Program-made: the position numbers and the translations under genes
DNA from: an uncultured Alistipes sp.
GTDB lineage: Bacteria > Bacteroidota > Bacteroidia > Bacteroidales > Rikenellaceae
NCBI GenBank assembly: GCA_949285535.1
Contig: CASDZP010000002.1
Coordinates: forward strand, 1 to 64,000
Length of the DNA: 64,000 bases
Direction of reading: 5' to 3'
Shown here: piece after piece, positions 13,587 to 37,966 of the stretch
Numbering within the stretch: the stretch's first letter is position 1
Layout of the letters: each line of letters begins with the position of its first letter
The notes under the pieces: generated by a model
Databases searched by the model: none
What the model was told of the DNA's origin: nothing
What the model saw: the letters and a program-made list of their open reading frames with translations, nothing else

Positions 13587-14810
13587 TTATTTTGTCTCTT
13601 TCGGGGGTAAAAGCAATGACGAGTCGCCATAGCTTAAAAATCTGAAACCGTTGTCCATGGCGAAACGGTATATATCCCTCCAGCCGTCGCCTATAAGCGC
13701 GCTTACAAGCAGAAGCAGAGTGCTTTGCGGCTGGTGGAAATTGGTAAACATACCCCTTATGACACGCCATATGTAAGGCGGCGTTATCATTATTCTGGTC
13801 GAACATTCGATTTTATCCATGCCGTCGGTGTCCATGCGCTCGTAAAGGGATTCGAGCAGCTCTTTACCGCCAATGTTTTCAGGAATGTCATAGCTTTCCC
13901 ATTGACCGATTGTGCGGTCGTAGTCGGCAGAGCCGTTCTTCATTATGCGATAGCCGAGTGCTGGTAACGATTCGAGTGTCCTCACCGATGTCGTGCCGAC
14001 GGCTATGATGTTGCCGTAACCGTCAATCAGCTTTTTGACAGTCTCTTTACGTACTGAAAAATGTTCGACGTGCATGTGGTGTTCGGCGGCATTCTCGCTT
14101 TTTACGGGCAGGAAAGTGCCTGCGCCCACGTGTAGCGTAACCTCCGCCATGGGGTGACCGTTACGGGAGAGGCGTTCGAGCATCTCGTCCGTGAAGTGCA
14201 GCCCGGCAGTGGGTGCAGCCACCGACCCCTCGAATTTCGAGTAAACGGTCTGATAACGTGTGTTGTCCTCCTCACGGCTCTCTCTGTTGAGATAGGGAGG
14301 GATGGGGATGCGTCCGAGCAGTTCGAGCATCTGACCGAATGTGAGACTTCGGTCGCTCCATGTAAAACGGACTATCTGTTCTTTCTCCGTCGCTCCGACA
14401 CGTTCTGCCGAAAGGGTATGGGTGACGCCCTCATGTGTAAACTCCGTCTTTAGCGCGCCCTCCTTCCATTTGCGCAGATTGCCGACCATACATATCCATT
14501 CTGCGCTGTCTGTGGCGGCAAAGGCACGTTCATAATCGGCGGGTGCATGCGGTTCGAGGCAGAAAATCTCTATCCGCGCGCCGCTATCCTTGAAAAACAT
14601 GAGACGCGCCCTTATAACCTTTGTATTGTTGAATACGAGAGTCGCGCCTTCGGGTAAAAAATCCTCTATATTGTCGAAATGCGAACAGTGGGGAGCGCCG
14701 TCCCAAAAAAGCAACTTCGAGTCGCCGCGCTTTGCGGGCGGAAATTTTGCGATTCGCTCTTCCGGTAACTCGTAGTCATAATCTTTTATATTTATCTCTC
14801 TGTCCGTCAT
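13587..14810 (-). CDS. queA: S-adenosylmethionine:tRNA ribosyltransferase-isomerase QueA
   Basis: 407 residues from the ATG at 14810 (MTDREINIKDYDYELPEERIA). A further open stretch upstream runs antisense to the next gene and is ignored. QueA transfers the ribosyl group of SAM to preQ1 in tRNA to make epoxyqueuosine. Conserved segments include FNNTKVIRARL, SVAAPTAGLHFT, HVGAGTFLPV, GTTSVRTLES and FHQPQSTLLLLVSALIG. It is somewhat longer than the about 350 residues of E. coli QueA. It is followed by the YgiQ gene on the same strand with a 67 bp gap. Confidence 0.93.
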   Translation of the reverse strand: MTDREINIKDYDYELPEERIAKFPPAKRGDSKLLFWDGAPHCSHFDNIEDFLPEGATLVFNNTKVIRARLMFFKDSGARIEIFCLEPHAPADYERAFAATDSAEWICMVGNLRKWKEGALKTEFTHEGVTHTLSAERVGATEKEQIVRFTWSDRSLTFGQMLELLGRIPIPPYLNRESREEDNTRYQTVYSKFEGSVAAPTAGLHFTDEMLERLSRNGHPMAEVTLHVGAGTFLPVKSENAAEHHMHVEHFSVRKETVKKLIDGYGNIIAVGTTSVRTLESLPALGYRIMKNGSADYDRTIGQWESYDIPENIGGKELLESLYERMDTDGMDKIECSTRIMITPPYIWRVIRGMFTNFHQPQSTLLLLVSALIGDGWRDIYRFAMDNGFRFLSYGDSSLLLPPKETK

Positions 14811-24313: not shown

Positions 24314-24335
24314 ATATTCATCGAGATTTTATATA

Positions 24336-24385
24336 GTGAGGCTCCAACGGGGTATGTTTACCAACCTGTCGGAGCCTCATTTTTT
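24336..24385 (+). terminator. Terminator of hisS
   Basis: TGAGGCTCC pairs with GGAGCCTCA, followed by TTTTTTG, 24 bp after the hisS stop. Confidence 0.85.
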
Positions 24386-24469
24386 GCATAGTAATGTTTA
24401 TATATTTGGCAAGTTCATATTCTGTACCGTTAAGCTCCATTATAATCATAGATTACAAACGATTAGGTG

Positions 24470-24600
24470 TTGACTTCGTGAAAGATAATGAGCCAAATGA
24501 GTATGACATGGTCAAAAGGGGCTGTGCCCCCTCGTTTTGTCTTACTTTGTCGAGTGACAAAGTAAGCCCCGCGGGAGCGCCCTCGGAGAGCCCGTCGGGA
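24470..24600. repeat. Dispersed repeat, copy A
   Basis: This stretch matches 36561-36669 in three blocks: GATAATGAGCCAA with TGA-rich sequence after it, AAAAGGGGCTGTGCCCCC, and GAGTGACAAAGTAA. It contains a GGGGC-TGT-GCCCC hairpin (24518-24530) and a perfect 11-bp inverted repeat CTTACTTTGTC/GACAAAGTAAG (24541-24566); copy B lacks the left half of the latter. Beyond it are two CCCTCGGAGAG units. The short frame through it (ending DKVSPAGAPSESPSG) looks non-coding. Its right edge abuts the inverted gene-end copy. Confidence 0.65.
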
Positions 24601-24622
24601 GACCCCTCGGAGAGTTCATAGT

Positions 24623-24774
24623 AAGACCCTGTCGGTAAGGACAGTATGGTTGCCGTTAACGCACAACTGCATCGAAAGTGATAGAGGCTCTATCTTATTA
24701 AGATAAAGCCTCTATCACTTCCTGATGCAATTGTGCGTTAGCGGCAACCATACTATCCTTACCGACAGGGTCTT
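24623..24774. repeat. Inverted duplication of the phosphatase gene's 3' end, locus A
   Basis: Left arm 24623-24697 is an inverted copy of right arm 24698-24774, which is the last 25 codons plus stop of the minus-strand phosphatase gene. The two meet at the stop codon in the palindrome TCTTATTAAGA with no loop. The arms differ at about five positions and one single-base indel; two of the coding changes are synonymous and one is not. The left arm is a non-functional copy and begins right after the dispersed repeat. Confidence 0.85.
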
Positions 24775-25483
24775 TGCCGTAGTAGTCCGTTATGATGCCG
24801 CCTGCGCCTCTGATTATCGGGATTATTGCGGAGCTGTCCCAGATGGAGGTGTGGGGATCGACCATGATGTCTGCTTTGCCTGTGGCAAGGAGGTAGTAGC
24901 CGTAACCGTCACCCCATGTGCGGAAACATTTGGCACGTTGAGTGAGAGACATGAATTTATCCGGGTCACGGTATTTGTAGAAACCGCGAGTGCCAGATGT
25001 CAAAATGGTAGCTTCGGAAATCGAGTTACATTGACGCATCGTGACCTCTTTCCCGTCGAGCAGAGCGACGTTGTTGTCGCCAACGAGCAACTTGTTGAAT
25101 GTCGGCAGATATATCGCGCCGTATTGAGGTATGTCGTCAACGGTGTAGGCGATAAGGGTCGAGTAGAGCGGTACGCCATGAATAAAACTCTGCGTGCCGT
25201 CTATCGGGTCTATAATCCACTTGTATCGACTATCTTTCCTGCCTGAAAGCCCGCTTTCCTCTCCCAGAACGGAACAGAGAGGCATGGATGTGGTTATGTG
25301 CTCGACAAACATGCGCTCAATGGATATGTCTGCCATTGTCACGGGAGACATGTCCTCCTTGAAACGAGGTTGGACAACCGATGAGGTGAAATATTCGGTT
25401 ATGTTTTTTATGTTGACGGAGACGAACTTAACCAAATCGACAAACTGTTCGAAATCAAACTCAAACTTAGTGTTTATCGGCAT
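24698..25483 (-). CDS. Inositol-monophosphatase-family phosphatase, histidinol-phosphatase-like
   Basis: 261 residues from the ATG at 25483 (MPINTKFEFDFEQFVDLV). Metal-binding motifs of the IMPase fold are present: GEESG, then WIIDPIDGTQSFIHG, and late WDSSAIIPIIRGAGGIITDYYG. The stretch GDGYGYYLLATGKADIMVDPHTSIWD is closest to the HisN-type histidinol-phosphatases among IMPase relatives. CysQ-type bisphosphate nucleotidase is the main alternative. The start overlaps the end of the small membrane protein gene by 17 bp. The 3' end has been copied as an inverted repeat just downstream. Confidence 0.8.
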   Translation of the reverse strand: MPINTKFEFDFEQFVDLVKFVSVNIKNITEYFTSSVVQPRFKEDMSPVTMADISIERMFVEHITTSMPLCSVLGEESGLSGRKDSRYKWIIDPIDGTQSFIHGVPLYSTLIAYTVDDIPQYGAIYLPTFNKLLVGDNNVALLDGKEVTMRQCNSISEATILTSGTRGFYKYRDPDKFMSLTQRAKCFRTWGDGYGYYLLATGKADIMVDPHTSIWDSSAIIPIIRGAGGIITDYYGKDPVGKDSMVAANAQLHQEVIEALS

Positions 25484-36363: not shown

Positions 36364-36560
36364 AAAAACTCTTTTTATTCCTGCAAATATAAGCATTTAC
36401 AGACAAAAGATTCTTTTACGACACCTTAATTTTACACATTTCCATCAAAAATATTATTTTTCACTTTGGTTTTCTTTCAATCAATAATCTTTCGTCACAA
36501 ACATATATCCATTTCTCTTTATTGACCTTGTCATATCGGCGCAAATACACGCTTAATATG

Positions 36561-36669
36561 CTGACTTTATGTGAGATAATGAGCCAACTGAATGTGATAT
36601 GGATAAAAGGGGCTGTGCCCCCGAGTGACAAAGTAATGCCGTCGGCAGACCCGTCAGAGACACCAGACA
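36561..36669. repeat. Dispersed repeat, copy B
   Basis: The sequence follows copy A at 24470-24600: TGACTT, GATAATGAGCCAA, a TGA-rich part, AAAAGGGGCTGTGCCCCC and GAGTGACAAAGTAA, then a diverged GTCGGCAGACCCGTCAGAGAC part. The GGGGC-TGT-GCCCC hairpin is at 36609-36621. The second hairpin of copy A is reduced to its right half. It abuts the inverted gene-end copy at 36670. The remainder of the 36364-36814 gap shows nothing else. Confidence 0.65.
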
Positions 36670-36886
36670 GGAAGAGACCCTACATGATTTTCCCCGTGAA
36701 AGTGAAAGTCATGCCGACAAACAGGTAACTGTTCTTTAACAAGCCGTAAAGCAAATAAAAAGAGTGTTGTACCTAAACAGGCACAACACTCTTTTTTATC
36801 TGTTTTACGGCTTGTTAAAGAACAGTTACCTGTTTGCCGTGCATGACTTTCACTTTCACGGGGAAAATCATGTAGGGGTCTCTTCC
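36670..36886. repeat. Inverted duplication of the hydrolase gene's 3' end, locus B
   Basis: Left arm 36670-36775 is an inverted copy of right arm 36778-36886. The right arm holds the last 23 or so codons of the hydrolase gene, its stop and the first half of its terminator. The terminator hairpin is the centre of the palindrome. The arms differ by a lost C, a short indel near ATGCACGGCAAACAG versus ATGCCGACAAACAG, and a few substitutions. The left copy still reads RPYMIFPVKVKVM in one frame. Confidence 0.85.
36757..36797 (-). terminator. Terminator of the secreted hydrolase gene
   Basis: On the minus strand AAAAAGAGTGTTGTGCC pairs with GGTACAACACTCTTTTT; one A-C mismatch interrupts the stem. 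It starts about 18 bp after the stop codon and forms the core of the larger palindrome. Confidence 0.85.
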
Positions 36887-37966
36887 TGCGTCCACGTCCG
36901 CTTTTATTGATTTGAGAGAACGGGGAAGAACCTTTTTGTAAATCGTTTCGCCCTGATACTGTATTGTTACAGGTTTGTCGAGGTCCATCATGTTGTCGTT
37001 CAAACCGAAAATTACAGAGGGAGAGTCCGCATAGATTATGTTTACGGTGTTGTTTTCGCCGTCATATTCGGCAACCACCTTGCAGTCTTCGTTTCTGCCG
37101 TTGGGAGAGGCATAGAGCCAATAGAAACTGTCTCTTATCACATCGTCCTGTACCCATGAAACCTTGTTGGGATAGGGGTTACGGGTGAATTTAGGCATCC
37201 ATGACATCGCTACCGAGTCCTGACGGTTCATCCAGTGACCGCATTCCTCATATATGTGAGAGTCAGAGATAAAACCGCCTTCGGCATTGTGAAGCGAGTC
37301 GAGACGCGCAATCCACTCGCGAGCCAGACCGTTACGGTTGTATGCCGCGTCTTTGCCACCCATAAAGATAGAGAACGGCAGGTTTCTCAGGTTCTCGATT
37401 TTTGCGTTGTTGGGGTGTCCTGCCATCATTGATGCAGCAGCCCAGTGGTCAGCCAGACGGGGAGCAAGCTGGAAAGTACCGTCACCGCCGGCAGAGTAAC
37501 CCATAACATATACCTTATTGGGGTTTACATCCTCGTATATGCCTGCAAGCTGAATGATTTTATCCACAAAGCCGTCCATATAGAACTGATGCCACATGTT
37601 CCATGTGTCGGTCGGAGAGCGGGGAACAAAATAGAGCCCTTCCTGGGGAGTGTAGAGCTTTTTCTGATTTTCCCACTGCTGGTCGTTGACCTCCGCGGGA
37701 GCTCCGCCACCACCGTGCATGGATATATAAAGAGCGCGACCGTCAGCAGGCTTTTCACCTACCACGCGGTATATGAACTTCATCTTGTAGTCACCGTTGG
37801 TGAGTTCACCCTCTTTCCATTCATGACCGTATTCGGCTTTTATTTTTGCTTCGCGCTCAGCCAAAAGCTCTGACGTAGCCTTCTCGGCTTCCTCTTTGCT
37901 CAACTTCTGAGCCTGAACAGATGTCAGCAACGCGAAACAGAAAAGTGATAAAAACAACTTTTTCAT
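36815..37966 (-). CDS. Secreted alpha/beta hydrolase (esterase-like)
   Basis: 383 residues with a signal peptide (MKKLFLSLFCFALLTSVQAQ). The alpha/beta-hydrolase fold is supported by an oxyanion motif MHGGGG (83-88), nucleophile elbow GYSAGG (Ser158), Asp206 in GGKDAAYN and His244 in EECGHWMN. The spacing of the triad fits PHB-depolymerase/acetyl-xylan-esterase-like secreted enzymes. A 130-residue C-terminal domain of beta character follows (VVAEYDGENNTVNIIYADSPSVIFGL). Substrate unknown; an ester of a polysaccharide or peptide is possible. The 3' end is copied in inverted form just downstream. Confidence 0.8.
   Translation of the reverse strand: MKKLFLSLFCFALLTSVQAQKLSKEEAEKATSELLAEREAKIKAEYGHEWKEGELTNGDYKMKFIYRVVGEKPADGRALYISMHGGGGAPAEVNDQQWENQKKLYTPQEGLYFVPRSPTDTWNMWHQFYMDGFVDKIIQLAGIYEDVNPNKVYVMGYSAGGDGTFQLAPRLADHWAAASMMAGHPNNAKIENLRNLPFSIFMGGKDAAYNRNGLAREWIARLDSLHNAEGGFISDSHIYEECGHWMNRQDSVAMSWMPKFTRNPYPNKVSWVQDDVIRDSFYWLYASPNGRNEDCKVVAEYDGENNTVNIIYADSPSVIFGLNDNMMDLDKPVTIQYQGETIYKKVLPRSLKSIKADVDAGRDPYMIFPVKVKVMHGKQVTVL

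Follow-up and report, generated by a model that had tools for sequence, protein, structure and literature searches.

A dispersed repeat element in an uncultured Alistipes genome is joined at one end to palindromic copies of neighboring gene ends

Two palindromes and their companion element

The window, a stretch of 64,000 nucleotides at the start of contig CASDZP010000002.1 (assembly GCA_949285535.1) of an uncultured Alistipes sp., contains two long palindromes, A and B, each of which duplicates the 3' end of a gene in inverted orientation and lies beside a copy of a short repeat designated element E. Such a palindrome is the constant companion of this dispersed element at about 130 gene ends of the genome, which is the main fact that the purely local reading of the earlier note misses. 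We propose, as a reading that we favor with some reserve, that fold-back (template-switch) synthesis at a gene-end hairpin, coupled to the joining of E, left each palindrome as a scar at the junction. The features of the two loci are as follows.

24466–24614, plus strand: element E copy A, common to copy B and 130 genomic copies
24615–24622, no strand: linker TTCATAGT between the E array and palindrome A, matching neither arm
24623–24697, plus strand: outer arm of palindrome A, a sense copy in which the last ~25 phosphatase codons are duplicated in inversion
24699–24774, minus strand: inner arm of palindrome A, the genuine 3' end of the phosphatase coding sequence
24698–25483, minus strand: gene of the inositol monophosphatase family (PF00459), whose C terminus is at the center of palindrome A
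36557–36661, plus strand: element E copy B, of a subtype without the left half of the second hairpin
36668–36888, no strand: palindrome B, 221 bp, 92% identity
36815–37966, minus strand: open reading frame for a secreted-looking protein, with its 3' end duplicated in palindrome B

Palindrome A (24623–24774) is 152 bp in length and loop-free, and its arms are 91.5% complementary. It is centered, as the earlier note had described, on the TAA stop codon of the phosphatase gene (24698–24700), and the duplicate has diverged as reported there, the two arms differing by ~6 substitutions and one single-base indel that shifts the reading frame of the outer arm. The inner arm is the coding end that is conserved in congeners, from which the duplicate is absent. 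The C terminus of the phosphatase in the window is ~6–14 residues shorter than those of the congener proteins, which run past the palindrome center. The suggestion that the mRNA 3' end can fold back on itself agrees with the predicted folding energy of the gene-strand RNA, −132.3 kcal/mol as compared with −37.6 ± 3.9 kcal/mol for dinucleotide shuffles (z = −24), and the palindrome is far beyond chance. The second locus implied by the same note is real, and palindrome B is as extreme in its folding (z = −26). Its center is a bidirectional terminator hairpin (AAAAAGAGTGTTGT...ACAACACTCTTTTT) located 37 bp beyond the stop codon of the gene at 36815–37966, for whose product no Pfam family was matched; at locus A, the fold center is a small repeat at the stop codon. 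Each palindrome is on the same side of its E copy, and E lies outside the palindrome, away from the gene.

Structure and copies of element E

Element E is a dispersed repeat of ~145 bp. Copy A comprises, in order, a GACTTCG box, the segment AATGAGCC...GACATGG, a GGGGCTGTGCCCC hairpin, a second hairpin, TTACTTTGTC-GAGT-GACAAAGTAA (in general form, TTACTTTGTC-GAGK-GACAAAGTAA), and a GC-rich array of mini-hairpins, namely CGCGGGAGCG, CTCGGAGAG, GTCGGGAGAC, and again CTCGGAGAG. The mini-hairpins have three-base stems (CTC/GAG, GTC/GAC, CGC/GCG, CAC/GTG, and TGC/GCA) and loops of GGA, GGGA, or GGCA. The deletion that characterizes copy B recurs in two other copies (L039 and L058). The 5' edge of E was set by the loss of column conservation, and its exact position is uncertain because, in half of the copies, shared sequence of two or more kinds continues upstream. 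About 130 copies are present in the genome of the window (G000; 2.05 Mb in 59 contigs), distributed 64:66 between the two strands, and the reversed E pattern gave no matches in the same scan.

In copies from both this genome and a sister species, the second hairpin covaries, with the pair types TA, GC, AT, and CG at one position and two pair types at the next. From this covariation, E may act as an RNA or as single-stranded DNA, and template-switch correction could also yield the pattern. The folding of E alone shows a modest gain over shuffles (z = −2.6). Rfam scans of E loci identified no known structured RNA and no group II family; matches to microRNA precursors were rejected as spurious products of the hairpins themselves. 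The idea that E is a coding repeat was discarded on inspection, since copies differ from one another at the first and second coding positions and not solely at the third.

Palindromes joined to E

Directly 3' of E, a loop-free palindrome of 44–337 bp with 80–99% identity is present at 61 of 62 copies in G000, and the sole exception is cut by a contig end. A second count in the same genome found a palindrome at 63/63 readable copies, and an unbiased 403-kb sample found one at 21/22; these counts derive from an incomplete metagenome-assembled genome (MAG), as do those for the sister species below, and full reading covered roughly half of the 130 copies. The association is one-sided, since the palindrome is at the 3' end of E at every copy that bears one. 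The sequence of the palindrome differs at every locus, where it repeats, in inversion, the 3' end of whichever gene points at E. The stop codon of this gene is 0–87 bp from the palindrome center in nearly all loci and often ~35–45 bp from it, which is the distance at which terminators lie; the central hairpin is usually terminator-like, with a T-run in 38/61 loci.

That palindrome A is not an assembly fold-back, as the earlier note had argued, is upheld by these data. In these MAGs, some contigs break off at E or inside a palindrome, as a chimera of assembly or amplification might produce, but the arms have diverged with a codon-position structure, the palindrome accompanies 63 of 63 copies, and the same arrangement occurs in an independently assembled MAG, so that we regard a chimeric origin as exceedingly improbable.

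The junctions between E and the palindromes are varied. Some share 3–6 nt, others carry 5–25 nt of AT-rich filler, and linkers of 0–25 nt, or microhomology, occupy the position of the linker of copy A in other copies. At several loci, gene bases complete the last mini-hairpin of E (among them L048, GGAGCG, six bases; L030, AGCA, four; L019, GAG, three; L018, three). The array itself is variably truncated at the junction. Four loci (L002, L005, L009, and L017) contain inverted pairs of E with spacers of 285–638 bp that are homologous between several of them. In such double-E loci, each E copy has its own palindrome, and the identities within a locus can be unequal (98 and 82% in L017; 98 and 86% in L002). 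Long loop-free palindromes with no recognizable E nearby were seen in G000 at L121:9904–10005 and L126:9301–9378.

Divergence of the palindrome arms

Over 3489 aligned coding sites, mismatches between the arms amount to 4.3, 5.0, and 8.3% at codon positions 1, 2, and 3 (p = 1e-4), and 79% are transitions. The mismatches behave as neutral decay, which in the outer arm affects every codon position. This pattern fits a history in which both arms drifted after one duplication, with purifying selection on the real gene arm only. In an mRNA hairpin, 80 mismatches would leave a G-U pair, as compared with 83 transitions that would not; the counts are equal and there is therefore no sign of selection for a paired hairpin.

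These numbers bear on the possibility that the palindrome and E together form a maintained functional structure, a strong bidirectional terminator, RNA stabilizer, or antisense device under selection. The very large folding energies of palindromes A and B, the covariation of the second E hairpin in two species, and the gene-end position of E would all be expected of such a structure. However, wobble-preserving mismatches are not in excess in the palindromes, the outer arm decays freely to identities as low as 80%, and the covariation is in E, outside the palindromes, and we consider this explanation unlikely. The roles proposed in the earlier note, termination, protection, or silencing of the transcript, are thus unsupported as the reason for the palindromes, although the palindromes may play some part in termination or silencing.

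Divergence is highest at the palindrome center (14.6%) and lowest distally, at the junction (~5%). The high central value may be attributed partly to the non-coding nature of the center and partly to what is expected if an imperfect pre-existing hairpin received a faithful extension. As a clock, arm identity did not correlate with the divergence of E (rho −0.11, p 0.42).

Distribution in relatives

No E was detected in the congeners G031 and G011, and the orthologous hisS/phosphatase intergenic regions of both contain neither E nor a palindrome. At other orthologous gene ends with readable 3' flanks in G031, there is an ordinary terminator or none that is obvious, and no palindrome. A strict scan for long palindromes found 16 over 403 kb of G000, as against 1 over 399 kb of G031. 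The earlier note had named relatives with no trace of the palindrome, together with an assembly join, as grounds for discarding it. The relatives do lack it at this locus; an assembly join is excluded by the overall pattern, and the lack of any trace in G031 and G011 is explained by a lineage-specific gain.

The sister species (G042, a congeneric Rikenellaceae MAG) has 29 E copies, with palindromes at 9 of 11 readable copies and at 8 of 10 in a second, partly overlapping set; copies L088 and L090 have none. The 5' half of E is uniform within each species and differs between G000 and G042, so the copies spread, or were homogenized, after the species split. One gene, which we take to be methylmalonyl-CoA-mutase-like, is accompanied by E and a palindrome in G000 as well as in G042, but the central hairpin and the length of the arms are not the same in the two. 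The orthologous gene ends L021 and L094, one from each species, have E and palindromes with non-homologous central hairpins, and either repeated targeting or the rebuilding of an old shared site could account for them. No E was found in 264 other genomes of the family, in about 390 genomes of the order, or in plasmids, phages, and viral contigs.

In another phylum, a repeated hairpin, GTTTTGGTTACTTTGTC...GACAAAGTAACCCGCGCCGGAGCGCGG, that occurs with GC mini-hairpins (L072 and L079–L083, from Clostridia/Oscillospiraceae MAGs, and L070) is close to the second hairpin of E and is unaccompanied by gene-end palindromes. The GTTACTTTGTC hairpins of Clostridia and Chitinispirillaceae were rejected as members of the same system; they are similar hairpins with no loop-free gene-end palindrome.

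Candidate enzymes and known systems

A Y1 transposase was rejected as the engine of E, since Y1_Tnp (PF01797) was found in none of five genomes, including G000 (88% complete), G042, G011, and G031, in a search with positive controls. Loss of the hairpin nuclease SbcCD was likewise rejected as a permissive cause. G000 and its congeners each encode an SbcD homologue, and the palindromes therefore persist despite a hairpin-nuclease gene. SbcD homologues scored above the cut-off in G000, G011, G031, and G042 and below it in the other eleven family members tested.

The only reverse transcriptase (RT) detected in G000 is of the type found in diversity-generating retroelements (DGRs) and has an Avd-like partner. 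This DGR, at L062:10818–16928, comprises an RT of 456 residues, an Avd-like four-helix protein, and direct repeats of ~350 nt. DGR targeting requires a hairpin with a GRNA loop just after the coding end (PMC3240598). Mobilization of E by this resident DGR would accord with these target requirements, with the RT being the sole one found, and with the frequency of GGGA or GGCA loops in the E mini-hairpins. Against it, the RT and E are distributed differently among congeners (in G011 the same RT occurs without E, and in G042, 82% complete, E occurs with no RT detected), E is not near the DGR, and fold-backs are not a known product of DGR homing. We judge this route very unlikely.

For each of four known classes, REPs, MITEs, group IIC introns, and DGRs, E was found to lack one or more of the defining features examined. 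Like E, REP/BIME/REPIN repeats with their RAYT transposases are short non-coding hairpin repeats with 100 or more intergenic copies near gene 3' ends, but the cognate Y1 (RAYT) transposase was not found in the E-bearing genomes or congeners. We know of no REPs that are fused to an inverted duplicate of the neighboring gene, as E is. MITEs resemble E in being small, high-copy, and non-autonomous, with bursts limited to lineages. In contrast to MITEs, however, single E copies have no terminal inverted repeats, no inverted pair joins the ends of E, and only one end of E is joined to the palindrome, which is derived from the target; the double-E loci are two whole copies in inversion. Group IIC introns insert beside intrinsic terminator hairpins (PMC3240598). 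E is likewise found at terminators, which form the palindrome center at most loci, but it is only ~145 bp in length, matches no group II family in Rfam, and is accompanied by no intron RT. To our knowledge, group IIC insertion does not duplicate the gene end.

Quasi-palindromes arise by a template switch in which the nascent strand is copied on itself, yielding near-perfect inverted repeats (PMC8794818, PMC7202029). The palindromes described here are likewise near-perfect inverted copies beside their template, centered on a pre-existing inverted repeat. We know of no case in which a repeat element accompanies quasi-palindromes at some 130 gene ends, and in the open-access literature we found no report of a systematic coupling of template-switch palindromes to a dispersed element at gene ends. 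Many long loop-free palindromes in or at coding sequence have been reported from nematomorph mitochondria (PMC6649704); those are inside genes of an animal organelle and are not known to be tied to a dispersed element.

Proposed mechanism

In the scheme that we favor, the strand carrying the 3' end of the gene would fold upon itself at an inverted repeat. This repeat would usually be the intrinsic terminator hairpin; at locus A it would be the small repeat by the stop codon. A polymerase primed by the folded end would copy ~20–170 nt of the gene back-to-front. Synthesis would then switch between the gene and the GC-rich array at the 3' end of E, in one direction or the other, by way of a few microhomologous bases or a short filler, after which both arms would drift. 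Observed directly are the one-sided and nearly constant pairing of E with a palindrome, the palindrome centers at gene ends, the inverted gene copies, the empty sites in orthologous positions, and the neutral decay of the arms. The fold-back step is well supported; its priming by the folded end, the template switch, the timing at the arrival of E, the polymerase, the mobilizing enzyme, and the order of events are what we infer around it. An RNA intermediate would suit the polarity of the joining (at the 3' end of E), the variable end of the array, and the use of transcript ends, but the one RT detected, of the DGR type, also occurs in G011, which lacks E, and was not detected in G042; a DNA route is equally plausible. 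A bolder version, which we consider doubtful, casts E as a SINE-like retroelement of bacteria. Its RNA would have a fixed 5' side and a variable hairpin array at the 3' end, and reverse transcription of this RNA would be coupled to self-primed reverse transcription of the host mRNA 3' end at the terminator hairpin. Each new insertion would then carry an inverted cDNA copy of the adjoining gene end.

Several observations count against a scar formed when E arrives. Arm identity is uncorrelated with E divergence, a few long palindromes in G000 have no recognizable E, and the searches identified no enzyme that would mobilize E. The unequal identities at double-E loci indicate that palindromes may form or re-homogenize after the arrival of E, and the two G042 copies without palindromes indicate that fold-back is not obligatory there. 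Growth in situ after the arrival of E is consequently a serious rival, possible though not probable in our estimation. It holds that E arrives first by an unrelated route, that its hairpin array stalls replication or repair, and that snap-back synthesis extends the neighboring terminator hairpin stepwise as far as E by quasi-palindrome template switching. Apart from the absence of a correlation, the unequal palindrome ages, and the bare G042 copies, it gains from the variable truncation of the array at the junction and from the known ability of template switching to create and mend hairpin stems (PMC8794818). However, the palindrome is already present at 63/63 copies in G000, near-consensus ones included, and ordinary strong terminators elsewhere in that genome remain unextended.

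If the scar reading is right, a bacterial mobile repeat joins at the 3' ends of transcription units and leaves a fold-back copy of the gene, which would be a new signature of insertion. Very long terminator hairpins would arise naturally by this process, which could also shorten or rewrite protein C termini, as at locus A. The ~130 scars of graded age in one genome would provide a large natural series on the origin, survival, and decay of long palindromes in bacteria.

Other repeats

Another dispersed repeat, TTGGCAAGCGTACCCCGTCA-like and often palindromic, has the core GTACCCC and is present in the window at 24329–24384 and 13741–13776 and elsewhere at L127:10950–11037, L131:1126–1204, and L134:1568–1639. 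One arm of this repeat falls within the hisS terminator loop, and the repeat forms the upstream flank of some E copies. G031, which has no E, contains unrelated palindromic repeats in which CCCCGTTTTGAGATATTGAGG is followed by a ~60-bp palindrome with locus-specific arms (L103:6348–6404, L103:7058–7118, L104:5768–5901, L105:18851–18914, and L118:2598–2661).
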